A stretch of 64,000 nt of DNA from contig NZ_CM001558.1 of NCBI RefSeq assembly GCF_000281895.1, forward strand, positions 3,104,556 to 3,168,555, in the 5' to 3' direction. The position numbers were made by a program, and so were the translations under genes. The stretch comes from Pseudomonas fluorescens Q2-87 (GTDB lineage: Bacteria > Pseudomonadota > Gammaproteobacteria > Pseudomonadales > Pseudomonadaceae). Each line of letters opens with the position of its first letter. Position 1 is the first letter of the stretch. Shown piece after piece: positions 6,986 through 64,000 of the stretch. Below the pieces are notes generated by a model, which did no database searches, was not told where the DNA came from, and worked only from the letters and a program-made list of their open reading frames with translations.

Positions 6986-7208
6986 GGAACAAAGCGCCGA
7001 AGGAAGCGAAAGTACTGGTTATGCGTACAGATAACAGCAACGAACGGCCCAGGCAACTGCAAAAGATGAACGGTTCCCTATATTTAAGGTGAAATCCTTC
7101 TATCGCTGATGAACTTTCCTACGGTAAGCGAGACCAATGGCGGTTGACTAAACGTGATGGCGCGGTCGAATCAGTTGATCCGTGTCCTTTGAGTGAGAGG
7201 TTATGGTT

Positions 7209-7433
7209 ATGAACATCAGGACTCTGGGCCTGCCCCTGGTCACCGTGGCTTTCCTGGCATTGGCCGGCTGCGCGTCGCCTACCGTGGTGACCCTGCAGAA
7301 CGGTACTCAGTATTTGACCAAGGACACTCCCAATACGCGCACCAGCGACGGCTTCTACGAATTCGAGGATATTGCCGGCAAGAAAGTCCGGGTCCGTGCT
7401 GATGACGTAGCGACTATTCGCAAGGAAGACTGA
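7209..7433 (+). CDS. YgdI/YgdR-like small lipoprotein
   Basis: A 74-residue protein with a lipoprotein signal peptide and lipobox LAGC (cysteine at about residue 22 of this start), followed by an SH3-like YgdI/YgdR domain: VVTLQNGTQYLTKDTP, then YEFEDIAGKKVRVRADDV. It should be lipidated and exported; these proteins are outer-membrane lipoproteins of unknown function. An in-frame ATG at 7203 lies only two bases after the AGAGG ribosome site (7196-7200). The ATG at 7209 has a normal 8-base spacing and is chosen. The gene is monocistronic and followed by REP elements. Confidence 0.85.
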   Translation: MNIRTLGLPLVTVAFLALAGCASPTVVTLQNGTQYLTKDTPNTRTSDGFYEFEDIAGKKVRVRADDVATIRKED

Positions 7434-7450
7434 TCTTCGGTGTTTGCCTG

Positions 7451-7537
7451 ACAGGCCGTCATCGCAAGCTTGCTCGCTCCCACAGGGTCGTTCACAACAG
7501 AACCTCAAGGGGAGCGAGCTTGCTCGTGATAGCGATG
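7451..7537. repeat. Pair of inverted REP elements (BIME-like)
   Basis: Two copies of the Pseudomonas REP core face each other: GCAAGCTTGCTCGCTCCCAC on the left and GGGAGCGAGCTTGCTCG on the right, separated by about 20 bases. They lie between the converging ends of the lipoprotein and lipase genes. Such pairs commonly form stem-loops, stabilise 3' ends and terminate convergent transcripts. Confidence 0.75.
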
Positions 7538-9391: not shown

Positions 9392-9421
9392 GGTGGTTGC
9401 TCGCTTTTTGTTGTTGGAATG

Positions 9422-9438
9422 CTGAAACCGGGTTTCAG
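9422..9438. promoter_or_regulatory. Perfect palindrome upstream of the lipase gene
   Basis: CTGAAACCGGGTTTCAG is a perfect 8+1+8 dyad about 30 bases upstream of the lipase start codon. It may be an operator or an RNA hairpin in the autotransporter-lipase leader. No known consensus is claimed. Confidence 0.35.
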
Positions 9439-9447
9439 GGGATTGGC

Positions 9448-9476
9448 TGTGGCAAGGGGGCGTCCCCCTCGCCACA
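9448..9476. repeat. REP-like hairpin between autotransporter and lipase genes
   Basis: A 13-bp stem (TGTGGCAAGGGGG paired with CCCCCTCGCCACA, one mismatch, 3-base loop CGT) sits directly after the autotransporter stop codon. It resembles the Pseudomonas REP arm. It may partly uncouple lipase expression from the upstream operon. Confidence 0.65.
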
Positions 9477-9487
9477 GAGGGGCTTGG

Positions 9488-12400
9488 TCAGAACTGCCAA
9501 TCCAGCGTCAGGCCCACGCCGTGGGATTTATCCCTGGAACCGAGCAGGCCGTTGTAGTCCAGGTTGACGCGCACATCCTTGGCCACCGCAAGGCCGGCTC
9601 GAGCGCCGATCACGGCGGCGTTGCGGTCCATGGACACGCTGCGCACCGCGAAAGTGTCGTTGCTACCGGCAAAAGCCAGGTCCTGTTCGGAGCGGGTGTC
9701 GCTCAGGTTGTGCTGCCAGCCCAGGGACCCGGACAACTGGAGTTGCTGCGCTTGCGACAACGCCAGGGTGTGACTGGCACGCAGACCCAGGGTCGAGAGC
9801 ACGGCGTCGCGGCGATCGTCGCCACTGTGCAGGGCCGCGCTATCACCTTTTTCATGGAAGCTGTCGCTGTCCAGGTGCACGTAGGCCAGGTTCGCGAACG
9901 GTTCCAGGGCTATCGGTTGCAGGTCGAGGCGATACGCCGCCTCGGTGAACAGCTGGGCGGTCCGGGCGTCACGCTTGGTTTTCTCCCGGCCACTGACGTC
10001 ACCCCATTGCAGATCGCGTTTGACGTCGATGCGGTGCCAGCTATAGGCGGCGCCTGCGGTCAAGCGCAAGGCATCGATTTCACGGCCCAGATAGACGCCC
10101 AGGTGATAGCTGTCGGCTTTGGCGGATGAATGAGTGCCGTCGCCCATGCTCAACGAACTGTCGCTATAACCGGTGACGAAGCCCAGTCGGGTCTGGTCGC
10201 CGATCAAGCCATCGACACCGGCCAGCAGGCCGCCGATCGAATGGCTGGTACTGGCGTTGTCATGCCCTCCATCGTCTTTGCCCCAGGCACCGAGCACCTT
10301 GAACCAGGCATTGCTGTCGGCATCGGTCGGTGTACCAGCGTCATACAACGCGTCCTGGCGCAAGCGATCGCCGACGGCATCGCGCAACTGGCGGCTGTCG
10401 TTGATCAGCAGCGTGCCGATGGCCGGGTGGATCTCACCGGACAGCTGCTGGAATGCCTGTTGCGCCACGGCAGCGCTGGGCGACAGCAGCAAGGCTTCAT
10501 AAAGCCCGTTGCCCGCGCCCAGTCCTTCGGCGGCGACGGCGACGGCGCGTTCGTTGCGCGTCAGGCCCAGGCTGGCGAACGATGCGTCGTTACGCTCCAC
10601 CGCCAGTTGGACGCCGCCTGCGGTGTAGGCCAGGTCACCACCGAGAAACGCATAGTTGGGCAACACCTCCCCGAAGCGCCCATCAATACCGCCAGCGGCC
10701 TGCAGGATATTGAATTGCCGACCGAGCAGGCTTTTCGCCTCGCCAGCGCTGAGCAGTGTCGGGCTGTTTTCCAGGGACAGCGACACCGTCGCCCCGTCAA
10801 TGGAGGCCTTGCCGCCGGCAACGATCAGGTCGCTGGACGTAGGCGAGACTTCTACGGCGTAGTTCGAGCCGGGCTGGAACGTCACGTCCCCGGCCACTTG
10901 CAAGGTGCCGATGGAGTTGCCCGGCGCCACGCTGCCGCCACGGTTGGCGGTCAGGCTGGCGATACGACCGTTGCCACCGAGCACACCGCCGTCGTTAACG
11001 GTGACCGCCGAAGCCAGCGAGCCATTGATCGCCAATCGCCCTTGATTGACCAGGGTCGGTCCGCTGTAGGTGTTTTCGCCGGTCAGCACCAACGTGCCGA
11101 TGCCCTGCTTGGTCAGCCCGCCATGGCCGGAAATGTCGTTGCGCCAGACATCCAGGCCACACTGGATCCCGCTGCACACCCGCTCAGTCGGCTTGCCGGC
11201 GTCGATGATCGCGCCGATGCCCGGCAGGTCCGCGACGAACTGGCCGGAGCCATAGGCGCCCTCGATTCGATACGCCTCGGGAATGTCCTGCTCGGTCACC
11301 AACATCGACGGGCCATCGATGGCCTTGCCCAGGTTGATCATGCCCCAGCCATACAGCGAATCGACACCCGGCGCGCCCATGTCGGTGGCGGTGGTGCGCA
11401 ACACGCTGGCGACCTGCGCGCCGGTCATGTAGGGGAAACGCTCCATCAGCACCGCAACGCTGCCGGCCACATGGGGCGCCGCCATCGACGTACCGCTCTT
11501 GTTGCCGTAACCCACCGTCAGGTCATCGGCACTGGTGCCACCGATCACGGCGCTATAGACCCGGGTGCCGGGGGCTGACACGCAGAAACTCGCGGTGTAG
11601 CCGCAGCGCGACGAGAAGGTACTGATGGTGTAGGGGTTCGGGCTGGCGGTATCCGGGTTGACTTGCAACGCGGCGACGGTGAGCCAGTTCGGTGCGATGT
11701 CCGGGACGAAATACGCCAGCCCGGCGATGGCGTCCGGGTTGTTCAGGTTGTAGTCGTTGCCGGCGGCGAAAATCGTCACGATCCCGCTGCGGGCCGCGGC
11801 GATAGCGCCTTCATACGCGCCGCCGGGCGGGGTGCCGAGTAGCGGCTTGATCTGGTCGAATTGCAGTTGTGCGTCCTGCACGGTGAAGTGCGGGAACGCT
11901 GGGTCACGGCCTCCCTGGTCGAAACGGTCGGTGATGCCGATGCCCCAGCTGTTGTTGATGATGCGCGCGCCACTGGCAATCAGGGCATCCCAACCGGCCT
12001 TGTACACCGCGCCATCGTTGCCGAGGATGATGCCGTCTTCGGGGCCGGGGTCGCCGTTGTCGGCGCTGATGATTTGCGCATCGAACGCCACGCCATGCAT
12101 CGGGCCACCGTCGCGGCTGCCGGCGGCAATCCCGCCAACGTGTGTGCCGTGGGAGCCCAACTTGCCATCGGAACCCACCGTGGGTGAACCGTCGTAGCGG
12201 AACGGATCACCGGCCTTTACCGGGATGTACGGGTCGGTGTATTGGCGGATGCCGCTGGTGACCATGGTCACGACCTTGTTGGGGCCGGAAAACTCCGGAT
12301 GTGCCGCGTAGACGGGTTGGTCGAAGATCCCCAATTTGACGCCCTTGCCGGTGTAGCCGGCGGCGTAGGCTTGTTGGGCGTTGACCGCCCCAAGGCCCCA

Positions 12401-12574
12401 TTCGGCATTGAATTCACTGCTGCGCCAGCTGTCCGGATTCCCCGGCCTGCCGCTCTCGACATACGGCGCGGCGTGGGCCGTACCGAGGGTCGCCAGGGCG
12501 CAGAGCATGGCGTGGTTGAGGGTTTTCAACAGAAACAGCCGGCCCGTTTGCCCGGGTTGTTTTTTGTGTTTCAT
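9488..12574 (-). CDS. Subtilisin-like serine protease autotransporter
   Basis: The product is 1028 residues. An extended signal peptide (MKHKKQPGQTGRLFLLKTLN onward, ending near AHA) leads into an S8 subtilase domain with catalytic Asp in LGIFDQPV, His in GSHGTHVGGIAAG and Ser in SGTSMAAPHVAG. A beta-helix autotransporter repeat follows (GTLVLTGENTYSGPTLVNQG), then a 12-strand barrel ending in TLDWQF. It is a type V secreted protease displayed on or released from the cell surface. The ATG at 12574 is chosen for its strong AAGGAAGG ribosome site; an upstream in-frame start has none. It corresponds to PrtA/PrtB of fluorescent pseudomonads, which usually carry two such genes here; this strain has one. 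Confidence 0.92.
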   Translation of the reverse strand: MKHKKQPGQTGRLFLLKTLNHAMLCALATLGTAHAAPYVESGRPGNPDSWRSSEFNAEWGLGAVNAQQAYAAGYTGKGVKLGIFDQPVYAAHPEFSGPNKVVTMVTSGIRQYTDPYIPVKAGDPFRYDGSPTVGSDGKLGSHGTHVGGIAAGSRDGGPMHGVAFDAQIISADNGDPGPEDGIILGNDGAVYKAGWDALIASGARIINNSWGIGITDRFDQGGRDPAFPHFTVQDAQLQFDQIKPLLGTPPGGAYEGAIAAARSGIVTIFAAGNDYNLNNPDAIAGLAYFVPDIAPNWLTVAALQVNPDTASPNPYTISTFSSRCGYTASFCVSAPGTRVYSAVIGGTSADDLTVGYGNKSGTSMAAPHVAGSVAVLMERFPYMTGAQVASVLRTTATDMGAPGVDSLYGWGMINLGKAIDGPSMLVTEQDIPEAYRIEGAYGSGQFVADLPGIGAIIDAGKPTERVCSGIQCGLDVWRNDISGHGGLTKQGIGTLVLTGENTYSGPTLVNQGRLAINGSLASAVTVNDGGVLGGNGRIASLTANRGGSVAPGNSIGTLQVAGDVTFQPGSNYAVEVSPTSSDLIVAGGKASIDGATVSLSLENSPTLLSAGEAKSLLGRQFNILQAAGGIDGRFGEVLPNYAFLGGDLAYTAGGVQLAVERNDASFASLGLTRNERAVAVAAEGLGAGNGLYEALLLSPSAAVAQQAFQQLSGEIHPAIGTLLINDSRQLRDAVGDRLRQDALYDAGTPTDADSNAWFKVLGAWGKDDGGHDNASTSHSIGGLLAGVDGLIGDQTRLGFVTGYSDSSLSMGDGTHSSAKADSYHLGVYLGREIDALRLTAGAAYSWHRIDVKRDLQWGDVSGREKTKRDARTAQLFTEAAYRLDLQPIALEPFANLAYVHLDSDSFHEKGDSAALHSGDDRRDAVLSTLGLRASHTLALSQAQQLQLSGSLGWQHNLSDTRSEQDLAFAGSNDTFAVRSVSMDRNAAVIGARAGLAVAKDVRVNLDYNGLLGSRDKSHGVGLTLDWQF

Positions 12575-12652
12575 CCGAACCTTCCTTAGTGATTGCCAAA
12601 GTTGTTGCCAAAAACCTTTGGTTTGCCCTGCCCCTGTCACAGCGGCAGCCGG

Positions 12653-13996
12653 CTAGCGCCCTTGCGCCACAAACGCTTCATCCACCTTCGCCAGGTCCTG
12701 GGCTCCCAACGTGCCGGCGTAGTAATGCAACTTGGTCCAGGCCATGAGGTAGTCGTAGCGAGCCTGGGCCAAGTCGCGACGAGTGGTGTAGAGCTGCTGC
12801 TCGGCGTTGAGGGCGTCGAGGTTGACCCGCTCGCCGCCGAGAATGCTTTGCCGGGTCGACACCACCAGTGCCTCGGCCGAGGCCAGGGCTTTCTGGTAGG
12901 CCTTGAGCTTGTTCACGCCCGACGCGCAGGCACTGAACTGGCGGCGCAGCTCGATCAGCGTCTCACGGGTCTTGGCATCCAGTTCGTATTCAGCCTGTTC
13001 CATGGTGCGGCTGGCCTGGCGGGTCGACGCCGAGACCCCGCCGCCGGCATAGAGCGGCACGCTGACTTCCAGGCCGATGGTGTTGGTGTCGTAGCGCTGG
13101 TTATAGGTGTTGCCGCTTTCCGATTCGTTCTGGCGCATCGTCGCGTAGGCGCTGACTTTGGGCAGGTGGCCGGCGCGGTTGCGCTCCACCTCGAAGCGCG
13201 CCACGTCCACGGCCTGGCGCTGCGACGCCAGGTTCGGGTTGTTGCTTACCGCCATCTCGTGCCAAGTGTCGAAAGTGGCCGGCTGCAACGCAAAAGTCTG
13301 GAAGGTGTCGTTGAGGGGGGCCAGGTCGCCAATGTCCAGGGTGGGCACGCCAATCAGCGCGCCAAGCTCGCGCAGGGAAGCGTCCTGTTCGTCTCGGGCC
13401 TCGATCTCTTCGGCGATCGCCAGCTCGTAGCGCGCCTGCGCCTCGAGAATGTCGGTGCGCGTGCCTTCGCCCTGGCGGAACAGGTGCTCGTTCTGCCGAA
13501 ACTGCTGTTCGAACGCCTTCTTCTTCGCCTGGGCGATGTCGATCTGGTCTTGGGCGAACAGCGCCTGGGTGTACTGGCTCAGCACCCGCACCAACAATTC
13601 CTGGCTCTTGCCGCGAAAGTTTTCGTCGGCGAACAGTGCCTGGGCCACGCCTTTGCGATAAGCGGCATACGCCTCGTAGTCCAGCAACGGTTGTTGCAGG
13701 GTCAGGCTGGAGCCGTAGCTGCTGTAGTTGCGATCGTCGTGCTGGCTGGCGCCGCGATCGTTGAGGTAGGTGACCTTGGACTGGTTGCGGCCCTTGTTGT
13801 AGCTGTAGCCCAGGTGCGGCAGCAGGCCGGCGCGGCCGATGGCACGGTTCTCAAGGCCTGCGTCGCGCTCCTTGATCGCGCCGAGGTAGACCGGATCATT
13901 ACGCAGCGCCTGCTCATAGAACTCAAAGGGGCCCATGGCCCAGACGTTGTTGCACACGGACAGGGCCAGCACGGCCCACCATTGGAAACGCTTCAT
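12653..13996 (-). CDS. aprF: TolC-family outer-membrane channel of the alkaline protease secretion system
   Basis: The 447-residue protein starts with a signal peptide (MKRFQWWAVLALSVCNNVWA) and has the two repeated outer-membrane-efflux domains with long alternating helices. LYTTRRDLAQARYDYLMAW near the C-terminus is typical of AprF/PrtF/TolC. It forms the trimeric outer-membrane duct of the type I secretion system. It lies 14 bp after the membrane-fusion-protein gene in the order D-E-F, as in other Pseudomonas apr operons. Confidence 0.93.
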   Translation of the reverse strand: MKRFQWWAVLALSVCNNVWAMGPFEFYEQALRNDPVYLGAIKERDAGLENRAIGRAGLLPHLGYSYNKGRNQSKVTYLNDRGASQHDDRNYSSYGSSLTLQQPLLDYEAYAAYRKGVAQALFADENFRGKSQELLVRVLSQYTQALFAQDQIDIAQAKKKAFEQQFRQNEHLFRQGEGTRTDILEAQARYELAIAEEIEARDEQDASLRELGALIGVPTLDIGDLAPLNDTFQTFALQPATFDTWHEMAVSNNPNLASQRQAVDVARFEVERNRAGHLPKVSAYATMRQNESESGNTYNQRYDTNTIGLEVSVPLYAGGGVSASTRQASRTMEQAEYELDAKTRETLIELRRQFSACASGVNKLKAYQKALASAEALVVSTRQSILGGERVNLDALNAEQQLYTTRRDLAQARYDYLMAWTKLHYYAGTLGAQDLAKVDEAFVAQGR

Positions 13997-52872: not shown

Positions 52873-53721
52873 ATGACTGTCACATTATCTCGCGCGTCGT
52901 CCACCACCCTGGTGCAGCGTGCCCATAACATTCGCCGCCATGCCTTGCGCATGGGTCAAGTCCAGGGCCAGGGCTACGTCGGCCAGGCGCTGGGCGCGGC
53001 AGATTTGCTGGCCGTGTCGTACTTTCATGCCTTGAACTACAAGCCCGAAGATCCCGAATGGGAACAGCGTGATCGCTTTTATCTTTCCATCGGCCACTAT
53101 GCGATCGCGCTATACGCCGCGCTGATCGAAGCTGAAATCATTCCACTGGACGAGCTTGAAACCTACGGTTCGGATGACAGCCGCTTGCCCATGTCCGGCA
53201 TGGCCGCATACACCCCCGGCATGGAAATCACCGGCGGCTCGCTGGGCCAGGGGCTGGGTATCGCGGTTGGCGCCTGCCTGGGTTTGAAGCGCAAGCAATC
53301 CGCCTCTTTCGTCTACAACCTGCTGTCGGATGGCGAGCTGAATGAGGGGTCTACCTGGGAAGCGGTCATGTCCGCTTCGCACTGGAAACTCGACAACCTG
53401 ATCGCCATCGTCGACGTCAATAACCAGCAAGCCGACGGGCATTCCAGCGAGGTGCTCGCATTTGAACCCATCGTTGACCGATGGCAAGCCTTTGGCTGGT
53501 TCACCCAGCGGGTAGACGGCAACGATCTCGACGCTTTGGTCAAGGCGTTCGACGCCGCCCGCCACCATCGCGCCGCGCAACCGCGCGTGGTCATTTGCGA
53601 TACCAAGATGGGCAAAGGCGTGCCGTTCCTGGAAACCCGCGAAAAAACTCACTTCATCCGCGTGGATGAGCATGAATGGGATGTGGCCCTGAACAACCTC
53701 GAAGAAGGCAAGACGCTATGA
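52873..53721 (+). CDS. Transketolase N-terminal (TPP-binding) subunit
   Basis: A 282-residue split transketolase half. The TPP motif reads LSDGELNEGSTWEAVM and then VDVNNQQADG, with Ser in place of the usual first Gly of GDG. Histidine-bearing SIGHYAIALYAAL and GGSLGQGLGIAVGACLG fit the family. It works with the C-terminal subunit encoded by the next gene, whose start overlaps its stop. The protein lacks the longer loops of sugar-phosphate transketolase (TktA), so substrates may be small or non-phosphorylated. Confidence 0.92.
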   Translation: MTVTLSRASSTTLVQRAHNIRRHALRMGQVQGQGYVGQALGAADLLAVSYFHALNYKPEDPEWEQRDRFYLSIGHYAIALYAALIEAEIIPLDELETYGSDDSRLPMSGMAAYTPGMEITGGSLGQGLGIAVGACLGLKRKQSASFVYNLLSDGELNEGSTWEAVMSASHWKLDNLIAIVDVNNQQADGHSSEVLAFEPIVDRWQAFGWFTQRVDGNDLDALVKAFDAARHHRAAQPRVVICDTKMGKGVPFLETREKTHFIRVDEHEWDVALNNLEEGKTL

Positions 53722-54740
53722 GTAACGCGACCAACACTACGGCTCAGGCGCCGGCGACCGTGAAGAAAAAACTGACAACTTCCGCAATGATTGCATCGAT
53801 TGCCGCTGAAGGTCAGGCCACCAGATCCGCACCTTTTGGACATGCCTTGGCCACGCTCGCGGATCAGCGCCAGGATATCGTGGGCTTATCGGCTGACTTG
53901 TCCAAATACACCGACCTGCATATTTTTGCGAAAGCGCACCCGGAGCGTTTTTACCAGATGGGCATGGCCGAGCAGTTGTTGATGAGCGCGGCGGCGGGCA
54001 TGGCTCGGGAGGGATTCGTGCCCTTCGCCACCACTTACGCGGTGTTTGCTTCGCGCCGGGCCTATGACTTCATTTGCATGGCGATTGCCGAGGAAAACCT
54101 CAACGTCAAAATCGTTTGTGGCTTGCCCGGGCTCACGACCGGGTATGGTCCCAGCCATCAGGCAACTGATGACTTGGCGATCTTGCGCGCCATGCCCAAC
54201 CTGATGATTGTCGATCCCTGCGATGCCCTGGAAATCGAACAGGCCGTGCCCGCCATAGCGGCGCATCAAGGCCCGGTGTACATGCGATTGCTGCGGGGTA
54301 ACGTACCGCTGGTGCTCGACGAATATGACTATACATTCGAGATCGGCAAAGCCAAGACCCTGCGCACCGGCAATGACGTCTTGATCATTTCCACTGGCTT
54401 GATGACCATGCGCGCCCTGGAAGCGGCCAAGGCGCTTCAAGCTGACGGCGTGGATGTCGCGGTGCTGCACGTTCCCACCATCAAGCCCTTGGATGAACAA
54501 ACCATTCTGGCGGAGGCCAGGAAGCCGGGGCGACTGGTAGTGACGGCGGAAAATCATTCCATCATCGGCGGATTGGGCGAAGCGGTGGCAACCGTGCTGT
54601 TGCGCAATGCAGTGACGCCGACGTTCAGGCAAATCGCCTTGCCGGACGCCTTTCTCGATGCTGGCGCGCTTCCGACATTGCATGATCGTTACGGTATTTC
54701 TACCCAAGCTGTGTGTACGCAGATCAAGGGTTGGTTATAG
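53718..54740 (+). CDS. Transketolase C-terminal subunit
   Basis: A 340-residue partner carrying the pyrimidine-binding and C-terminal domains. The TPP-activating Glu is in MGMAEQLLMSAAAGMA, followed by FATTYAVFASRRAYDF and the loop GYGPSHQATDD. The ATGA overlap with the N-terminal subunit gene means strict coupling. An in-frame upstream start at 53676 would overlap more and has no ribosome site. The N-terminal 35 residues are low-complexity Ala/Thr/Lys. Confidence 0.92.
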   Translation: MSNATNTTAQAPATVKKKLTTSAMIASIAAEGQATRSAPFGHALATLADQRQDIVGLSADLSKYTDLHIFAKAHPERFYQMGMAEQLLMSAAAGMAREGFVPFATTYAVFASRRAYDFICMAIAEENLNVKIVCGLPGLTTGYGPSHQATDDLAILRAMPNLMIVDPCDALEIEQAVPAIAAHQGPVYMRLLRGNVPLVLDEYDYTFEIGKAKTLRTGNDVLIISTGLMTMRALEAAKALQADGVDVAVLHVPTIKPLDEQTILAEARKPGRLVVTAENHSIIGGLGEAVATVLLRNAVTPTFRQIALPDAFLDAGALPTLHDRYGISTQAVCTQIKGWL

Positions 54741-55761: not shown

Positions 55762-56523
55762 TCACTTCAGCCCATTGGACAGAAACTGCTGCAGGCGCTC
55801 GCTTTGGGGGTTATCCAGAATCTCTGGCCCACCCTGTTCTTCGACAAGCCCCTGATGGAGAAACAGCAGTTGGTTCGACACCTTGCGTGCAAATCCCATT
55901 TCATGGGTCACCATGATCATGGTCCGGCCTTCTTCGGCGAGCCCCTGGATAACCTTCAATACTTCGCCCACCACCTCCGGGTCCAGCGCTGAAGTGGGTT
56001 CGTCGAACAACATGACCTCCGGCTCCATGGCCAGCGCACGGGCAATCGCTACGCGCTGCTGTTGGCCGCCTGAAAGAAACGCAGGGAACTGATCGGCAAC
56101 ACGGGCAGGCAAGCCGACTTTATCCAAGTACCGTCGGGCACGGTCTTCTGCATCCTTTTTGCTGATGCCCAGCACACGACGTGGGGCAATGGTGATGTTC
56201 TCGAGCACGGACATATGCCCCCACAGATTGAAATGCTGGAACACCATGGCCAAGCGGGTGCGCAATCGCTGCAGTTCTCGATCATCCGCCACCCGCAATC
56301 CAGTATGGTTTTTAACCATGCGGATCGGTTTTCCATCCAGGCTCATGGCAACGTCATCAGGGGTTTCAAGAAAATTGATACAGCGCAGGAACGTGCTCTT
56401 CCCGGAGCCGCTCGCGCCAATCAGGCTGATGACATCACCTGTTTCCGCTTGAAGGGAAACCCCTTTGAGCACCTCGTGGCTACCGTATTTCTTGTGCAGG
56501 CCGTCAACGGTCAATTTGTACAT
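55762..56523 (-). CDS. Polar amino acid ABC transporter ATPase (HisP-like)
   Basis: A 253-residue ATPase. Walker A is GASGSGKST, signature LSGGQQQRVAIARAL and Walker B VMLFDEPTSALDPE. The long loop after Walker A (RCINFLETPDDVAMSLDGKP) is typical of HisP/ArgT-system ATPases of basic amino acid importers. It is the last gene of a binding protein-permease-permease-ATPase operon. Confidence 0.93.
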   Translation of the reverse strand: MYKLTVDGLHKKYGSHEVLKGVSLQAETGDVISLIGASGSGKSTFLRCINFLETPDDVAMSLDGKPIRMVKNHTGLRVADDRELQRLRTRLAMVFQHFNLWGHMSVLENITIAPRRVLGISKKDAEDRARRYLDKVGLPARVADQFPAFLSGGQQQRVAIARALAMEPEVMLFDEPTSALDPEVVGEVLKVIQGLAEEGRTMIMVTHEMGFARKVSNQLLFLHQGLVEEQGGPEILDNPQSERLQQFLSNGLK

Positions 56524-56576
56524 TTTCGGTAATCATCCTCTAAAGCGGAATGGCAGCAGCCGTGTCAGGCAAGGGC

Positions 56577-57287
56577 TCAGTGCGCCGGGCCCAGGAAAGC
56601 CAGCCAATGACGTTCGGCGACTCGGAACAGGCCGACCAGGGCAAAAGTCACTGCCAGATAGATCAGCGCCGCGATCCCAAACGATTGAAAGGTCAAGAAA
56701 GTTGCGGAGTTGGCGTCACGCGCCACTTTGAGAATGTCTGGCACCGTGGCGGTGAACGCCACCGTGGTCGAATGCAGCATCAGAATGACTTCGTTGCTGT
56801 AATACGGCAGCGAACGACGCAGTGCTGAAGGCATGATCACAAAGGCGTAGAGCTTCCAGCCTGAGAGGCCATACGCTTTCGCAGCCTCGACCTCGCCATG
56901 GGCGACGTTGCGAATGGCCCCGGCAAATATTTCGGTGGTGTAGGCGCAAGTATTCAAGGCGAAGGCAAGAATGGTGCAGTTCATGGCATCGCGGAAAAAC
57001 GCATCCAGCACCGGCTGGGCACGTACCGCAGCCAAGCTGTAGATGCCGGTGTAGCAGATCAGCAACTGGATATAGAGCGGTGTTCCCCTGAACAGGTACG
57101 TGTAGAACTGCACCGGCCAGCGCACGTAGAACCTGGGTGAAACGCGAGCGATGGACAGTGGAATCGACACGACGAATCCAATGAAAATCGATGCGCTGAG
57201 CAACCACAGCGTCATTGCCAAACCGGTGATTTGGCTTCCATCGCTGTAGACGAAAGAGCGCCAGTATTCCTGCAACAATTCGATCAT
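56577..57287 (-). CDS. Polar amino acid ABC transporter permease (HisM-like)
   Basis: A 236-residue inner-membrane permease with five helices and the EAA loop VEAAKAYGLSGWKLYAFVIM. Its ATG overlaps the stop of the first permease gene (ATGA), so the two subunits are made together. An in-frame extension to 57332 is rejected for that reason. Confidence 0.93.
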   Translation of the reverse strand: MIELLQEYWRSFVYSDGSQITGLAMTLWLLSASIFIGFVVSIPLSIARVSPRFYVRWPVQFYTYLFRGTPLYIQLLICYTGIYSLAAVRAQPVLDAFFRDAMNCTILAFALNTCAYTTEIFAGAIRNVAHGEVEAAKAYGLSGWKLYAFVIMPSALRRSLPYYSNEVILMLHSTTVAFTATVPDILKVARDANSATFLTFQSFGIAALIYLAVTFALVGLFRVAERHWLAFLGPAH

Positions 57288-58012
57288 CGCACCGCCTCCC
57301 GTGAGCCCGCCGCGAAATACCGCTCCAGGCAACGCAGGACGACATTGGAGATGCTGGTGATGACCAGGTATGCCAGCGCCGCCAATATCAGAAAAAAGAA
57401 CAACTGGTAGGTGCTCTTTCCTGCGTCCTGAGCAGCCTTCACCAAGTCGGCCAGGCCGATGATCGACACCAGTGCGGTGGCTTTCAGGATCACCATCCAG
57501 TTATTGCCAAGACCCGGAAGCGCGAACCGCATCATTTGCGGGAAGACCACGAAGCGAAAACGTTGGACGCGACTTAGCCCATACGCGGTAGCCGCTTCGA
57601 CCTGGCCACGGGGAACGGCCAGCATGGCGCCGCGGAAGGTTTCGGTGAAATAGGCGCCATAGATGAACCCCAGGGTGATGATGCCGGCGACGAAGGGGTT
57701 GATCTCGATGTACTCCCAGTCCAACGCGTCCGTGATAACCGTCAGCCAGGTTTGCAGGCTGTAGAAAATCAACAGCATCAATACCAGGTCCGGCACCCCA
57801 CGAATCAGCGTTGTGTAGAGCTGCGCCGGCAAGCGCAGCAGCTTGAGGCTGGAAAGTTTGGCACTGGCCCCGATCAGCCCGAGCAATACGCTGAGCGCCA
57901 GGGCGGACAACGAGAGCTTGACGGTCATCCAGGCACCCTCGAGCAGCAAGGGACCGAACCCTTTCATGCTGAATGCGCCGAGCCCCAGGGCACCTAATAG
58001 TGTTTCGAACAT
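57284..58012 (-). CDS. Polar amino acid ABC transporter permease (HisQ-like)
   Basis: A 242-residue permease with the EAA loop VEAATAYGLSRVQRFRFVVF and five membrane helices. It pairs with the HisM-like subunit. The start ATG at 58012 (MFETLLGALG) is preferred over 58042, which adds a charged, non-conserved leader. Confidence 0.93.
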   Translation of the reverse strand: MFETLLGALGLGAFSMKGFGPLLLEGAWMTVKLSLSALALSVLLGLIGASAKLSSLKLLRLPAQLYTTLIRGVPDLVLMLLIFYSLQTWLTVITDALDWEYIEINPFVAGIITLGFIYGAYFTETFRGAMLAVPRGQVEAATAYGLSRVQRFRFVVFPQMMRFALPGLGNNWMVILKATALVSIIGLADLVKAAQDAGKSTYQLFFFLILAALAYLVITSISNVVLRCLERYFAAGSREAVR

Positions 58013-58064
58013 GATCGACAACCTATAGCGATAGACGCCCATCCAACGGACGAGCGCTGGGGGG

Positions 58065-58847
58065 TTATTTGCCGCTGTACAGATTCAGATCGCCAAAGTG
58101 TTGCTTCTGGATCGAATCGTAAGTGCCTTCGTCGTGCAGGGCCTGGATCGCTTTATCCAGCAGAGCCTTGAGTTGCGCATCGCCCTTGGCAATGCCGATG
58201 GCGGTTTTGGTGGGAAGATACGGGCTATCGACCGGTGGGCTCATTTCGTAATCGGCGCCCTGAGGTGACATGATAAATCCCAGCTGCGCTTGGAGGGTGT
58301 CCTGCAGGGATGCATCGAGCCGCCCAGCTACCAGGTCGTAATACACCTGGTCCTGGTTTTGATAGGACTGGATCTTTACGCCAGCCTTGTCCAGGACAGC
58401 CTTGGCGTAGGCTTCCTGGATACTGCCTTGGAAGTAGCCAACCGTCTTGCCCTTGAGTGACGCCACATCTGAGCTCAGGCCCGAGCCTTTCTTGAACACA
58501 TAAGACGTGAATCCGGAAAACAGCTCATTTGAAAAATCGATCGCTTTTTCACGCGGCGGCGTCACGGTCATTGACGAGAGAATGCCGTCGAACTTGCCGG
58601 CCCTGAGACCGGGAATCAAGCCATCAAAATCGCTCTCCACCCATAAGCATTTGACTTGAAGCTTTGCACAAATCGCATTGCCTAAATCAATGTCGAATCC
58701 CTTGAGGCTGCCATCGGCCGCCTTGAATTCAAACGGCGCGTAGCTGGCATCCACTCCGAAACGCAAGGTGGCGTACTCTTTGGCTGACACCGCGTTTGTG
58801 CACAGTGCAAAGAACATTATCAAATACAGTTTTTTCAGCGAAATCAT
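58065..58847 (-). CDS. HisJ/ArgT-like periplasmic amino acid binding protein
   Basis: A 260-residue precursor with a signal peptide ending near VSA-KEY. The ligand-binding pattern (LRFGVDASYAPFEFKAADGS, GFDIDLGNAICAKL, DFDGLIPGLRAGKFDGILSS) is that of lysine/arginine/ornithine/histidine binding proteins, so a basic amino acid or an analogue such as canavanine is a good candidate. TAGGGATG gives a ribosome site. A 50-bp repeated element lies 121 bp upstream. Confidence 0.92.
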   Translation of the reverse strand: MISLKKLYLIMFFALCTNAVSAKEYATLRFGVDASYAPFEFKAADGSLKGFDIDLGNAICAKLQVKCLWVESDFDGLIPGLRAGKFDGILSSMTVTPPREKAIDFSNELFSGFTSYVFKKGSGLSSDVASLKGKTVGYFQGSIQEAYAKAVLDKAGVKIQSYQNQDQVYYDLVAGRLDASLQDTLQAQLGFIMSPQGADYEMSPPVDSPYLPTKTAIGIAKGDAQLKALLDKAIQALHDEGTYDSIQKQHFGDLNLYSGK

Positions 58848-58968
58848 AAGTACATCCCTAGATATTGTAGTTGGATTAAGGGCAGTAGACATCTGACTGC
58901 GTTAAAACTTGGCACTCTATATTATTAGTTACAGGCCAGCGCCTTACATAAACGTTACCTGACCACAG

Positions 58969-59018
58969 TGACTTTACGAATATGGCAAACTGAACGTTAT
59001 CATGAGCAAAATGCTCGC
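58969..59018. promoter_or_regulatory. 50-bp repeated operator-like element, copy 1
   Basis: It contains TTTACGAATATGGCAAA, then GAACGTT, then the dyad GAGCA-AAA-TGCTC. Copy 2 at 62361-62410 matches at 44 of 50 bases with identical internal spacing. The first part is a pseudo-palindrome (TTT.C.A.T.T.G.AAA) like Lrp-family sites. It lies between the exporter stop codon and the binding-protein start, upstream of the transporter operon. Confidence 0.7.
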
Positions 59019-59020
59019 TT

Positions 59021-59338
59021 TCAGGCGGACACAAGTTTCATCATCAGCAAGCCGCTGACAATCAAAACAGCCGCCACGATCCGCAACAGGCTGGCGGGCT
59101 CCCCCATGAAGAAAATACCCGCCGCGAAGGCGCCCACAGCGCCGATACCGGTCCAGATGGTATACGCCGTGCCGAGCGGCAAGCTCTTCATCGAGAACGA
59201 CAACAAGGCGAAACTGGCAATCACGGTGATAAAGGTAATAACCGTTGGCCCTAATCGCGTAAACCCTTCAGATTGTTTCATCGAAAAAGCCCAGACCACT
59301 TCAAATATTCCTGCCACGATCAAACTTATCCAAGCCAC
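59021..59338 (-). CDS. gdx: SMR-family guanidinium exporter (Gdx/SugE type)
   Basis: A 105-residue, four-helix dual-topology protein. The essential Glu is in GIFEVVWAFSMKQSEGFTRL and the Gdx-type signatures are SLPLGTAYTIWTGIGAVGA; this pattern separates guanidinium exporters (Gdx, formerly SugE) from EmrE-type multidrug pumps. It starts with GTG after GGGAG. Its position beside a basic amino acid importer and a gamma-lyase suggests it exports a guanidino product of the pathway. No guanidine riboswitch is visible upstream. Confidence 0.88.
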   Translation of the reverse strand: MAWISLIVAGIFEVVWAFSMKQSEGFTRLGPTVITFITVIASFALLSFSMKSLPLGTAYTIWTGIGAVGAFAAGIFFMGEPASLLRIVAAVLIVSGLLMMKLVSA

Positions 59339-59412
59339 GACGCTCTCCCGAATACAAAAAATAGATAACTGGCCACGAACGCAGGCAATTCAATCAGCGA
59401 TTATTAAAAAGA

Positions 59413-59436
59413 CCCCCGCGAGCACGGGGGTAAAAA
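59413..59436 (-). terminator. Intrinsic terminator after the PLP lyase gene
   Basis: On the minus strand CCCCCG-TGCTCG-CGGGGG is followed by TCTTTTTAA. The plus strand also has an A/T run, so it could work both ways. It separates the lyase transcript from the exporter gene. Confidence 0.85.
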
Positions 59437-59479
59437 AACGGGTTGACCAAACCCTGGTTGCGTGATGCCTGTATTTAAA

Positions 59480-60682
59480 TCAATTGAATGTTTCGTCCAG
59501 CGCGAAGCCAATATCTTTTATCAAGTCTTCCGGGTCTTCCAATCCCACAGAAAAACGCAAATGACCGTATTGGCGGAACTCTTCGGGATACTTGTCAAAG
59601 CCCCCCCGACCTTCCGCGCCCACATGCACGATCAGGGATTCGTCATGCCCTAGAGAAACAGCTGAAGTGATGATGCGCAGATTCGAAACAAACCGGTTCT
59701 GCGCATCAGGATCGCCCTTCACCGCAAAGGCCATCACCGCCCCGAAGCCTTTGCCTGCAAATTGCCGTCTCGCCAGCTCATGCTGCGGATGGGAAGGCAA
59801 ACCCGGGTAATAGACGTAGGCAATCCGATCGTCGGAGTCCAGAAACCGAGCGAGCCTTTCAGCCGTATCCAGCAACTGCTTCAGGCGCAGTGGCAACGTG
59901 ACTGAACCACGCATTATCATCCACGCGTTGAATGGGGAAATGGTCGCGCCAAGATCCACCAGTGCATCATTTTTGATCTTGTTGATCAGCTGATTGGAGC
60001 CAATCACCACCCCGCCCATGGCGTCGCCATGCCCATTGATGTACTTGGTCAATGAGTGAATGACGAAGTCGACGCCGTGTTCGCTTGCGCGGAAAAATGG
60101 AGGCGGAGTGAACGTGGCGTCCACTGAGATAAGTGCGCCGTGGGCATGTGCAATTTCAGCCAACGCGCTGATGTCTGCAACCTTTGTGGTGGGGTTGGCG
60201 ATCGTTTCGGTGTGGATCAGCTTGGTATTGGGCCGAATGGCTTTACGCACCGACTCCAGGTCACCGACGTCTACGAACGTTGCTTCAATACCATAACGTT
60301 CAGGCAGTAGCTCTGCGAACAGGCGCCAGACTGCCTGGTAGGTGATGTCACTGACAATGACATGGTCACCGCTTTTCAAGAATGAAAAGAACACCGAGTG
60401 CAACGCCGCGACGCCGGTCGCGAAAACCACCGCGTCGTCACATCCCTCGAGGGCTGCGAGCTTCTTTTCAAGACAGACCTGGTTATGACCTTGATTACGC
60501 GTATATACGAGACCATCCGGGCTGGACCAGTCCATGGTCGCCGGATCTTCCGGGAGGAGATAGGAGTTAGCCATGACCAATGGCGTACGGACAGCGCCAC
60601 TGGTGACATCCGCGACGTTCCCGCCATGAACAGCCAGCGTCGCTGCAGATAATGTCAAAAGATTGTGTTTATCGGGACGCAT
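59480..60682 (-). CDS. PLP-dependent gamma-lyase of the Cys/Met metabolism family
   Basis: A 400-residue fold-type I enzyme. The Schiff-base lysine is in HSLTKYINGHGD, and YTRNQGHNQVCLEKKLAALE and SVDATFTPPPFF match the family (cystathionine gamma-lyase, methionine gamma-lyase). With an arginine-type importer and a guanidinium exporter next to it, the best guess is canavanine gamma-lyase, which splits canavanine into homoserine and hydroxyguanidine. Methionine or homocysteine lyase activity remains possible. AGAGGAA precedes the start. Confidence 0.85.
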   Translation of the reverse strand: MRPDKHNLLTLSAATLAVHGGNVADVTSGAVRTPLVMANSYLLPEDPATMDWSSPDGLVYTRNQGHNQVCLEKKLAALEGCDDAVVFATGVAALHSVFFSFLKSGDHVIVSDITYQAVWRLFAELLPERYGIEATFVDVGDLESVRKAIRPNTKLIHTETIANPTTKVADISALAEIAHAHGALISVDATFTPPPFFRASEHGVDFVIHSLTKYINGHGDAMGGVVIGSNQLINKIKNDALVDLGATISPFNAWMIMRGSVTLPLRLKQLLDTAERLARFLDSDDRIAYVYYPGLPSHPQHELARRQFAGKGFGAVMAFAVKGDPDAQNRFVSNLRIITSAVSLGHDESLIVHVGAEGRGGFDKYPEEFRQYGHLRFSVGLEDPEDLIKDIGFALDETFN

Positions 60683-60731
60683 GTCAATTCCTCTTTATTG
60701 TTGTGATTCGTTCTGGAGTCGAGGGTGTTGC

Positions 60732-62150
60732 TCAGCTTCCACTCACACCGTTAATGCAAATGACCTTGGGCTGCGTCATATCTTCGTAGGCAAAACGAAC
60801 CCCCTCACGGCCCATGCTTGCGTACTTGAAACCGCCGAAAGGCATTGCATCAAAGCGATAGTCCGAAGAGTCGTTGATCATCACCCCGCCCGCCTCCAGT
60901 CGTTTGGCTGCTGTCATTGCAACGTTCAGATTGCTGGTGAAGATCCCGGCATGCAGGCTGTATTCAAGTTCGTTAGCCAGCGCCAACGCTTCATCCAGGG
61001 AGGCGACGCTCTGGAGGATGACTACCGGGCTGAACGCTTCTTCGCACCACAACCTGCAATAGCGGTCGACGCCTTCCAGGACGGTCGGTGAATAGAGCGA
61101 ACCGTTGCGTGTATTGCCAGACAACACGTTGGCGCCGTTGGTGATGGCGTCGTTTACCACCGCTTCGGTACGCTTGGCTGACGCCTCGGTAATCATCGGC
61201 CCCACGTCTGTCTGCTCATCAGCAGGGTTGCCGACGATCAATTGCCGGGTCTTTTCAACAAAACGCGTTTTGAATAATTCGTAGAGTGGAGCCTCGATGA
61301 GGATCCGCTGGGTACCGATGCAGTTTTGACCGGCTGCCCAGAAAGCTCCCGACACGCATGAATCGACTGTTTCATCCAAGTCACAATCAGCCATCACAAT
61401 GACCGGTGCGTTACCGCCAAGATCCATGACCAGTTTCTTCAAGCCGGCCGTGCGAGAGATCTGCTCACCTGTGACAAAGCCGCCAGTGAACGACACCATG
61501 CGCACGGCGCGATGGGCGACCAGCGCCTTGCCCAGCGCGGCGCCTCCGGTGGCAACGGTGACGACAACCGGAGGCAGGCCCGCATCGATCAAGCACTCGA
61601 CCAGCTTGATGGCTGATAGCGGCGTGAGCTCGGACGGCTTGAGAACAACCGCGTTCCCCCCAGCAATGGCAGGCCCCAACTTATGCGCAACCAGATTAAG
61701 CGGGTCGTTGTAAGGCGTGATGGCGACGATGACGCCCAACGGTTCACGAGTGAACCATCCCTGACGGGCTTCAGACCCGGCATAGGCATCAAAAGGGATG
61801 ACCTCCCCGGCGTTACGCTTGGCCTCTTCGGCAGACAGCTTCAACGTGTTGACGCAGCGCAGCACTTCCTTTCTCGCCTGCTTGAGCGTTTTGCCAGACT
61901 CCGCGACGATCAATTTGGCGAAGGTATCCTTGTCACGCTCGACTGAACCTGCGGCTTTCTCCAAAATGCGCGCGCGCTCATGTCGCGGCATCTGCTTGGC
62001 AATCGAGGCACCTAAAATCGCGGTATCGACTATCGTGGTGGCGGATGACGCAGGCATGTCTGCCACTTCGCCTACCTTGCTACCGTCGAACGGACTGAAC
62101 ACCGTGATGGCCTTGTAATCAGCAGCCAGCGAGAGACTCAAGCTATTCAT
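60732..62150 (-). CDS. Aldehyde dehydrogenase (semialdehyde/phosphonoacetaldehyde dehydrogenase-like)
   Basis: A 472-residue class of NAD(P)-dependent aldehyde dehydrogenase. The catalytic Cys is in [15 protein letters not shown], the general base Glu is replaced or shifted in [13 protein letters not shown], the cofactor loop is [10 protein letters not shown] and [11 protein letters not shown] carries the conserved Asn. The general base in many members is Glu in ELGG; here it is DLGG. Upstream of the lyase gene, it may oxidise aspartate semialdehyde formed from homoserine. Confidence 0.85.
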
Positions 62151-62426
62151 GATGACTGACCTGACGTGGTTTTCTGTGTGTGAATACTCACGGTATCTGC
62201 GAGCAATGCAAAAGCCGTTTCAAAAAGACCTGCCCCCGCACCCAATAAGCGGAGCCAGAGCGCGATTAACACCACCAAAACCAAGCAATGCTTTTTTATA
62301 CTCAGTCACGATGGGCGTCTCATGGTTATGTTGTGATAGTGAGATAGTAATCCGCCAACTTGACTTTACGAATATGGCAAACAGAACGTTGTTGCGAGCA
62401 GAATGCTCGCACAACAGGACAATTTG
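62151..62426. promoter_or_regulatory. Promoter region of the dehydrogenase-lyase unit
   Basis: No gene is seen in this 276-bp gap after lrp. It holds copy 2 of the repeated element at its right end. On the minus strand TTGGCG and TATCAC are spaced about 13 bases apart downstream of the element; a promoter there is possible but not certain. Confidence 0.45.
62361..62410. promoter_or_regulatory. 50-bp repeated operator-like element, copy 2
   Basis: This is the second copy of the element at 58969-59018. Its dyad is longer: TGCGAGCA-GAA-TGCTCGCA, flanked by GTTG and CAAC. It begins 17 bp after the lrp stop codon and lies 210 bp upstream of the aldehyde dehydrogenase start. Confidence 0.7.
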
Positions 62427-62864
62427 CTATTTTGCGCTGGACAGAACAAACGACGTCATCGTATTCAGCACACCCGGCAACGCCGAAACTTCATTCCATA
62501 TCCTGTGGATGCGATCGGCGCTCATTGCCTGAACCGTCAATACAATATCAAGATCGCCGCTCATTACATTGCAGGAGATAATCTCGGGCATCGCTCCAAC
62601 GGAACGAACAACTTCCGAGTCACGCATGCGGTCTTTACGATAGACAAATATCAACGCATTGATCGGGCCGACATCACTGGAGGGCATGCCTTTGATAATT
62701 GTATAGCCCCTGATATAACCGTCGCGCTCCAACCGTTCTATTCGCAGCCTGACTGCGTTCCTGGACAAGTTGACCTTCATCGCAATGTCGTTGTGCGCCA
62801 AGCGGGAATTGCGCGTCAGCTCCTCCAGGATTTTTTCATCAGTTTTATCGAGAACACGTTTCAT
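62427..62864 (-). CDS. Lrp/AsnC-family transcriptional regulator
   Basis: A 145-residue regulator with the N-terminal HTH (LDKTDEKILEELTRNSRLAH, then NDIAMKVNLSRNAVRLRIER) and a C-terminal RAM ligand domain (GAMPEIISCNVMSGDLDIVL). The ATG at 62864 has GGAG upstream; the TTG at 62876 lies inside that ribosome site and is rejected. It stands between the threonine-synthase-like gene and the dehydrogenase gene, next to one copy of the 50-bp repeat, which it probably binds. The ligand is likely the imported amino acid. Confidence 0.92.
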   Translation of the reverse strand: MKRVLDKTDEKILEELTRNSRLAHNDIAMKVNLSRNAVRLRIERLERDGYIRGYTIIKGMPSSDVGPINALIFVYRKDRMRDSEVVRSVGAMPEIISCNVMSGDLDIVLTVQAMSADRIHRIWNEVSALPGVLNTMTSFVLSSAK

Positions 62865-62902
62865 CTCTGGCTCCAAGCTTGTAACGAGTGAGACTCCGTG
62901 TC

Positions 62903-64000
62903 TTAGGACAAGGACCTGACGAGAGAAGTCAGCGCCCCGATAGTGTTAGGAATCGAATTGCAGTTTTGCTCGCTCCGTACGGGAGCGTCTTCTGACCTCA
63001 GGAAGCCGAACATTTCCAACGTATCGTCTAGCACGCCAGTGTTGTTGGGACGCGTGGTCGCCAGACAGATCATCGGTATAAGCAAGCTGCGCCTGCTGAC
63101 ACGGGCTGCGCGCAGGCCGATAGCGGTGTTGGGACTGATCCGATAGCCGCTCTGTGCAAACACCTCACCCATGCAATCGAATGCATCCGAATCTTCCACA
63201 GCGAGCGAATCGAACAATTTCCGCGCCTCCAGCCAGCCATCCTGCTCTAATTGAACGGCGCCCTCACCTTCTAACAATTCCATATTACGAGCTACTTTTT
63301 CGCCGCATCGATTTAAGATGCTCCACTGTAGACGCTCAAAGTTCGACGCCAGCGAAACATTCATACTAGGTGTACGGGTCGTACGGATTTCATTTCGACT
63401 GTACAGATTCGATTGGAGAAAGTGATGCAGGCCGGCATTGGCATTCGTGGCGACGATCAACTGCCGAAGCGGCAGCCCCATTTGTTTGGCAATGTGCCCG
63501 GCATAGAGCGCACCGAAATTCGCGGCCGGCACACTGAAGGCCACTTCCCTTTTAGGCGCCCCGAGCTGAAGGGCGGAATAGAAATAGAACGTCAGCTGTG
63601 CAAGTACGCGAACCCAATGCACTGAATTGAACGAAACAAGATACTGCTGCGCATGATTGTCTTGCTTGAAGAACTGCTCACACAAACGATGACAATCAGC
63701 ATAATCCCCATCGACCGCTACATTTACAACGTTGCCTTCTCCAGCACTCAGTAAGCGTCGGCGATCCTCTTCCGTTATCCCTTTGGAGGGGTGCAATACC
63801 AACAAGGTAACGCCCTGCATTCCTGAAAATGCTTTTATTGCCGCGACTCCGGTATCTCCGCCGGTGCAACCTACAATTAGCGCCTTCTTTCCAGATATCA
63901 GCAAACCGTGTTCTATAAAACGAGACATCAATTGCAGGCCAAAGTCTTGGTAGACGCCTGACGGTCCATGAAACAACTCAAGTATCCACTCGTTACTTGC
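62903..64000 (-). CDS. Threonine-synthase-like protein without the PLP lysine (partial)
   Basis: The gene runs off the right edge, so its N-terminus is missing. The visible 365 residues align well with Pseudomonas ThrC (NEWILELFHGP, FYSALQLGAP, ARKLFDSLAV). The Schiff-base lysine of ThrC (TLAFKDF) is Gln here (SGVYQDF). The PLP-contact motifs also differ: SVPTGNFGD is SVPAANFGA, and the C-terminal AHPVKFP motif is lost. It probably cannot act as a threonine synthase. The frame is open throughout, so it seems to be a kept pseudo-enzyme or a protein with a new role. It lies 38 bp upstream of lrp. Confidence 0.85.
   Translation of the reverse strand, partial: ASNEWILELFHGPSGVYQDFGLQLMSRFIEHGLLISGKKALIVGCTGGDTGVAAIKAFSGMQGVTLLVLHPSKGITEEDRRRLLSAGEGNVVNVAVDGDYADCHRLCEQFFKQDNHAQQYLVSFNSVHWVRVLAQLTFYFYSALQLGAPKREVAFSVPAANFGALYAGHIAKQMGLPLRQLIVATNANAGLHHFLQSNLYSRNEIRTTRTPSMNVSLASNFERLQWSILNRCGEKVARNMELLEGEGAVQLEQDGWLEARKLFDSLAVEDSDAFDCMGEVFAQSGYRISPNTAIGLRAARVSRRSLLIPMICLATTRPNNTGVLDDTLEMFGFLRSEDAPVRSEQNCNSIPNTIGALTSLVRSLS

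Follow-up and report, generated by a model that had tools for sequence, protein, structure and literature searches.

The end of a 64,000-nucleotide stretch of Pseudomonas fluorescens Q2-87 (assembly GCF_000281895.1, contig NZ_CM001558.1, positions 3,104,556 to 3,168,555; hereafter the window) carries part of a gene run that very probably serves the catabolism and tolerance of canavanine, a toxic analogue of arginine that legumes produce; its activity, transport and regulation are predictions. Read along the minus strand, the run consists of a CtdA-type B3/4 gene, a threonine synthase (ThrC)-like gene, an Lrp-family regulator, an aldehyde dehydrogenase (ALDH), a pyridoxal phosphate (PLP)-dependent lyase, a Gdx-type small multidrug resistance (SMR) exporter, a substrate-binding protein, two permeases and an ATPase (Table 1). 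The rest of the ThrC-like gene and the CtdA-type gene sit beyond the window edge and were reached with a further stretch, L009, of the same 6.37 Mb single-contig genome (window position = L009 position + 54444), in which a regulator with helix–turn–helix (HTH) and cupin domains is divergent from the CtdA-type gene. Loci of this kind, with a canavanine gamma-lyase, are already published and have been known since 2022, when Hauth and colleagues reportedly described, in RSC Chem Biol, the canavanine utilization operon of Pseudomonas canavaninivorans with a gamma-lyase giving homoserine and hydroxyguanidine. A sequence-only reading of the window had named the genes from the importer to the ThrC-like protein, and the frame list and family models bear this out: all are open frames on the minus strand with matching families.

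Table 1 Features of the locus, in window positions except where L009 is given
Feature	Position	Strand	Basis or remark
ABC (ATP-binding cassette) importer ATPase, HisP type	55762..56523	-	PF00005; best NCBIfam HisP, 394.9 bits, under cut-off of 466
ABC permease, HisM type	56577..57287	-	NF011651 HisM subfamily, 413 bits, over cut-off of 306
ABC permease, HisQ type	57284..58042	-	NF011714 HisQ, 314.8 bits, cut-off 319
Substrate-binding protein, ArgT/HisJ type	58065..58892	-	PF00497; ArgT model, 235.7 bits, cut-off 440
Repeat A copy 2, candidate operator	58972..58990	-	Exact copy; before importer genes
Gdx-type SMR exporter, presumed hydroxyguanidine export	59021..59338	-	PF00893; best solved relatives 8vxu and 6wk5, gap-free alignment
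Terminator-like hairpin between lyase and gdx	59412..59431	-	8-pair stem and T run
Putative canavanine gamma-lyase orthologue, Cys/Met-family PLP enzyme	59480..60682	-	PF01053; 74% to P0189; tree; Ala at methionine gamma-lyase Cys position
ALDH, presumed aspartate-semialdehyde oxidation	60732..62150	-	PF00171; 65.6% to ALDH match of WSM2304 locus
Homoserine dehydrogenase (HSD) gene remnant	62156..62309	-	About 22 codons left from the start and 27-31 from the end; middle missing
Repeat A copy 1, candidate operator	62364..62382	-	Exact copy; in HSD-remnant leader, before ALDH
Lrp/AsnC-family regulator	62427..62876	-	PF13412, PF01037
ThrC-like protein, Gln at PLP-lysine position	62903..64000, past window edge; full gene L009:8459-9850	-	463 aa in full
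Repeat B copies, candidate operators	L009:9953-9970 and L009:10751-10768, outside window		CtdA/ThrC-like gap and HTH/CtdA gap
CtdA-type B3/4 gene	L009:10000-10716, outside window	-	PF03483, 72.7 bits; first of same-strand run
HTH and cupin regulator	L009:10789-11460, outside window		Divergent from CtdA

The window lyase shares 74% identity, over 99%, with P0189, a protein of Rhizobium leguminosarum bv. trifolii WSM2304 that is encoded on plasmid pRLG201 and has a UniRef name beginning with 'Canav'. A contig scan with the lyase found 111 relatives, and 80 loci were kept. For a tree we chose 42 rows: 31 of the 80 loci, the WSM2304 locus (L125), P0189, three paralogues from the window genome and six of 30 methionine gamma-lyase hits, all six over the TIGR01328 cut-off. 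The comparison with methionine gamma-lyases that the sequence-only reading had proposed separates the two, given that the window lyase falls within a 28-row clade (support 100/99) and the six references and three paralogues fall outside it. The P0189 and L125 rows join at zero branch length, the fork joining the clade to a group of relatives at 42-44% is weak (92/59), and the tree carries warnings for long branches among the paralogues and for the join of the methionine gamma-lyases with one paralogue. A cysteine that we take to be an active-site residue of methionine gamma-lyases is present in 6/6 references, and the clade rows have alanine (27/28) or arginine (1/28, L074) in that column. Residue 116, just before this alanine, is glutamine in the window lyase, L014 and L018, and glutamate in most Proteobacterial rows of the clade. 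The lyase thus belongs to the sequence clade of the named canavanine gamma-lyase, apart from methionine gamma-lyases, and is predicted to release homoserine and hydroxyguanidine.

The alternative, a sulphur amino acid locus in which the enzyme is a gamma-lyase for methionine or homocysteine and the SMR exporter beside it is unrelated, draws on the shared superfamily, on methionine gamma-lyases being the best solved relatives of the lyase, and on several sources naming relatives 'methionine-gamma-lyase'. However, the lyase scores under the cut-off in all 25 listed of 70 matched NCBIfam families, including four methionine gamma-lyase models, and neither CtdA nor Gdx has an evident role in methionine breakdown. 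Together with the tree and the active-site residue, the family cut-offs lead us to reject this alternative, which we regard as extremely improbable.

The canavanine assignment is further supported by the B3/4 gene at the head of the run, as this is where PMC10018355 (Hauth 2023) places the CtdA gene, directly in front of the canavanine utilization operon of P. canavaninivorans. The same paper describes a PLP gamma-lyase pathway via homoserine and hydroxyguanidine, as proposed for the window locus, deacylation of canavanyl-tRNA by CtdA in relatives, and an R. leguminosarum CtdA homologue (55% identity) co-localised with canavanine degradation genes. By domain and position the B3/4 protein is of the CtdA type, with a predicted role in canavanyl-tRNA(Arg) deacylation.

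The 74% lyase identity to the WSM2304 protein and the gene content shared with its locus also favour the canavanine assignment. The loci of R. leguminosarum WSM2304 and Norway (pRLN3, L126) have lyases 74-75% and Gdx proteins 63-68% identical to those of the window, and share CtdA, ALDH, Lrp and the divergent HTH regulator with it. Matches in the WSM2304 locus cover CtdA (59% to that of the window), the HTH regulator, an ABC importer, Gdx, ALDH, HSD, a DapA-like protein, aspartase (best piece 283 aa) and Lrp, with none to the phosphotransferase of the Rhizobium locus L044; the annotated Norway locus, by its public gene names, reads like that of WSM2304. Unlike the window locus, both contain HSD, DapA-like and aspartase genes (Norway also a phosphotransferase gene), lack a ThrC-like match and have a different binding protein (34-36%). 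A DapA-family gene also lies between CtdA and the ThrC-like gene in the Pseudomonas-type locus L010 (L010:3826-4728), without a real match in the window locus.

The window Gdx protein keeps Glu13, Trp16, Ser42 and Trp62, the same residues as in Gdx-Clo-type guanidinium exporters; according to PMC7695847, Trp16 is conserved among Gdx proteins and replaced by Gly or Ala in Qac types. Secretion of hydroxyguanidine by P. canavaninivorans once it has broken down canavanine is described in eLife (PMC11018352), and PMC10018355 names hydroxyguanidine as a trigger of a guanidine-I riboswitch. We infer that Gdx exports hydroxyguanidine, a presumed substrate that sets it apart from the guanidinium exporters. 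In total, three SMR genes are encoded in the genome. Among the loci of Pseudomonas taiwanensis type, a guanidine-II riboswitch (gathering score 32) immediately precedes gdx in L025 (35.4 bits), L023 (33.1) and L026 (38.8), and none reaches that score in the fourth, L022. Guanidine riboswitches at gathering score are likewise absent from the 6 Rhizobiales, 1 Burkholderiales, 7 Actinomycetota and 6 Bacillota loci searched.

Neighbourhoods were compared by tblastn (E 1e-8), counting matches anywhere in the available stretch and grouping taxa by record titles; because several stretches are short, some misses may be technical. All 16 Pseudomonas-type loci (15 named Pseudomonas, plus L022, named Pantoea) have matches to CtdA, Gdx, ALDH, Lrp and the ThrC-like protein near the lyase, which argues that the grouping is not due to chance; the binding protein is matched in 13 of them. 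CtdA is also matched in 15/20 Rhizobiales and 2/5 Burkholderiales loci, and CtdA and Gdx occur together in 16/16 Pseudomonas-type, 11/20 Rhizobiales, 2/5 Burkholderiales, 6/27 Actinomycetota, 0/6 Bacillota and 0/5 loci of the 42-44% group, and not in the single Chloroflexota metagenome-assembled genome. Two lyase loci share one rhizobial contig in three cases (L036/L039, L038/L040 and L043/L048), with L038, L039 and L048 having neither CtdA nor Gdx matches, and one genome sampled from the genus (G134) has two lyase genes. In the Bacillota relative L073, an S-adenosylmethionine (SAM) riboswitch on the opposite strand (9235-9338) hints at a sulphur role there.

Several observations weigh against a canavanine locus. 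The binding protein matches 14 NCBIfam models, each time with a score under the cut-off, and we leave its ligand unassigned because the ArgT score, too, is below its cut-off; as the WSM2304 binding protein is only 34% identical, the importer is not clearly conserved. Gdx reaches 119.5 bits against the curated SugE model, below the cut-off of 126. A riboswitch at the window locus is rejected, given that nothing reaches gathering score and the three sub-threshold matches are to unrelated families, with E up to 5. The lyase relatives of the Bacillota (6) and of the 42-44% group (5) have neither a CtdA nor a Gdx match nearby, which leaves a canavanine function unsupported for all six Bacillota relatives, and CtdA lies near the lyase in only 9/27 Actinomycetota loci. 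Finally, the HSD gene seen in sister and rhizobial loci is present at the window locus only as a remnant. Even so, the route put forward in the sequence-only reading (import, gamma-cleavage, export by Gdx and further use of homoserine) holds as the best reading, on the CtdA-type gene, the lyase identity, the tree and the riboswitches of relatives.

For the further use of homoserine, the ALDH is in the locus and the local HSD is broken. A frame of 384-415 aa, identified as PF00742 in L010, lies between Lrp and ALDH in 7/8 Pseudomonas-type loci examined, and L018 has none. Two pieces of the L010 frame are recognisable in the window, each in a different frame: residues 1-57 at 62244-62414 (79%) and residues 354-384 at 62156-62248 (77%). 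The match to an HSD encoded at 5.39 Mb in the window genome starts with the first residue of that enzyme at 62309, so part of the first piece is leader, and this leader, up to 62414, is likewise shared with L010. All 17 genome entries searched, several of them from the same or nearly the same genome, keep one or more HSDs of this type. The matches are 75-100% in the genomes of L010, L014, L016, L021, L022 and L025, and only a second paralogue (67-69%) is present in the window genome and in those of L018 and L017 (for L017, a contig-end fragment). In the L013 genome (G251), the sole HSD match is interrupted by a single in-frame stop, so this gene may have eroded on more than one occasion.

With the local gene reduced to a remnant, homoserine oxidation needs a paralogue elsewhere, and the enzyme at 5.39 Mb probably completes it. 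It belongs to a second homoserine-type cluster (L098, 5388000-5406000 of the genome; genes at 5388-13669 therein) with an ALDH, the HSD, a ThrC that keeps its PLP lysine (K-type), a LysR-like gene, an amino-acid permease nearest to the S-methylmethionine permease model, and a PF01053 enzyme of the cystathionine gamma-synthase family. The ALDH of this cluster shares 70% identity with that of the window, and its HSD 69% with the lost type. A locus in decay, or one kept for detoxification only, in which canavanine is destroyed and its carbon goes unused, would account for the HSD remnant, for a ThrC-like protein without its lysine and for the lack of an aspartase among the locus genes. Against this, the nine other locus genes tested are under strong purifying selection, with median ratios of nonsynonymous to synonymous substitution rates (dN/dS) of 0.02-0.07 (55 pairs from 11 loci, L017 and L020 left out; 1 to 32 pairs per neighbour gene and 34 for ThrC dropped for dS that was saturated or outside 0.02-2). 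The 5.39 Mb cluster pairs an HSD with its own ALDH, and the L018 and L017 genomes, also without a local HSD, keep such a paralogue. We therefore consider decay or pure detoxification unlikely and retain a catabolic locus that is completed from elsewhere in the chromosome.

The ThrC-like protein was correctly recognised as such by the sequence-only reading and keeps the fold, but it has lost the PLP lysine and is probably not a working threonine synthase. It resembles the threonine synthases of Brucella (4f4f) and yeast (1kl7) in fold and in much of its sequence, scoring 303 bits to 4f4f, and a model of the near-identical P0001 (mean pLDDT 75) superposes on 4f4f with a TM-score of 0.84; residues 105-111 of the model, preceding the glutamine (112 there), are a low-confidence stretch. 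In contrast to these enzymes, acidic positions are altered and the lysine of the FKD motif of 4f4f, 3v7n and 1kl7, presumably the PLP-binding residue, is glutamine (Gln116). An alignment of 139 rows that may overlap (120 listed of 7551 homologues, 16 from the loci and 3 from the window genome) has Lys in 105, Gln in 33 and His in 1 at this column, so that the lysine-less clade has 34 members; Gln is found in 12/12 of the loci L010-L021, and the P. taiwanensis-type loci (L022, L023, L025, L026) have a different ThrC-like gene with the Lys kept. In 62 columns at least 90% of the clade share one residue and at least 95% of the K-type rows another. The clade is thus coherent rather than randomly decaying, although part of the difference is plain divergence because the K-type set is mostly canonical ThrC. 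The glutamine (Q-type) form occurs in 7 of 249 sampled genomes of the genus (E 1e-140), all within the 9 with the lyase (E 1e-150), and lies 2.1 to 4.8 kb from the lyase in 7/7. Its median dN/dS is 0.13, above that of its neighbours and still indicative of purifying selection.

These features make the protein probably a pseudoenzyme; a working threonine synthase is rejected for want of the PLP lysine. It could still be an enzyme using another residue or reaction, for example from canavanine, canaline or homoserine to threonine, and the retained fold, the purifying selection, the one member with His at the PLP-lysine position and a lysine at position 136 common to 31/34 members (Glu in K-type rows) point that way. 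Yet the PLP lysine is gone in 34/34, position 136 is the nearest to a replacement as no column reaches 95% Lys in the clade, and conserved Asp positions 262, 287, 312, 325 and 387 are changed, which makes continued catalysis quite improbable. We tentatively suggest, as a possibility short of an expectation, that a lysine-less ThrC was recruited in Pseudomonas canavanine loci as a dedicated regulatory pseudoenzyme that would set the flow of canavanine-derived homoserine, either by sensing canavanine, homoserine or phosphohomoserine in the cytosol or by partnering the lyase or the adjacent Lrp. Judged by titles, the literature on canavanine, threonine synthase and pseudoenzymes yielded no published account of a lysine-less ThrC.

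Two repeats confined to the locus look like operators by sequence. Repeat A (GTTTGCCATATTCGTAAAG), a candidate site for Lrp, has only its two copies at the locus in the whole genome at up to 2 mismatches (reversed control, 0), and repeat B (GGTCATTATATTGACTTT), a candidate site for the HTH and cupin protein, likewise occurs exactly twice, both at the locus (two free positions, up to 1 mismatch). At up to 4 mismatches, repeat B lies at or near the CtdA/HTH promoter in 6/8 Pseudomonas-type loci scanned (L010, L014, L018, L020, L022 and L025) and in the Rhizobium locus L044; it was not found at that promoter of L021 at the same threshold, and the L016 data are without that stretch. Terminator-like elements show no excess in the region (11 found against 10.7 expected from shuffles), nor do promoter counts. 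Farther along the window, two adjacent frames at 52873-54740 look by eye like transketolase halves, beside genes resembling the short-chain dehydrogenase/reductase (SDR) and major facilitator superfamily (MFS) families.

On the proposed route, the ArgT/HisJ-type importer would take up canavanine, from which the lyase would eliminate hydroxyguanidine and leave homoserine, as published for P. canavaninivorans; Gdx would export the hydroxyguanidine, and the CtdA-type protein would clear canavanyl-tRNA(Arg), as published for relatives. An HSD from outside the locus, probably the 5.39 Mb paralogue, would convert homoserine to aspartate semialdehyde, the local ALDH would give aspartate, and a chromosomal aspartase (684.9 bits, just above the cut-off of 681.2) would then give fumarate and ammonia. 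The two regulators would act via the two repeats, and the probable ThrC-like pseudoenzyme may owe its retention to a role other than catalysis, perhaps in sensing a ligand or binding a partner.

Within this known kind of locus, the conserved lysine-less ThrC-like protein and the HSD remnant stand out. Canavanine breakdown, which is of interest for legume-root bacteria, is hereby extended to a further Pseudomonas genome, with a Gdx exporter tied to hydroxyguanidine disposal and riboswitch support in relatives. The broken HSD leads us to expect cooperation between two unlinked homoserine clusters, and the conserved PLP-lysine-less threonine synthase gives a soil strain a protein whose role is open to deletion testing.

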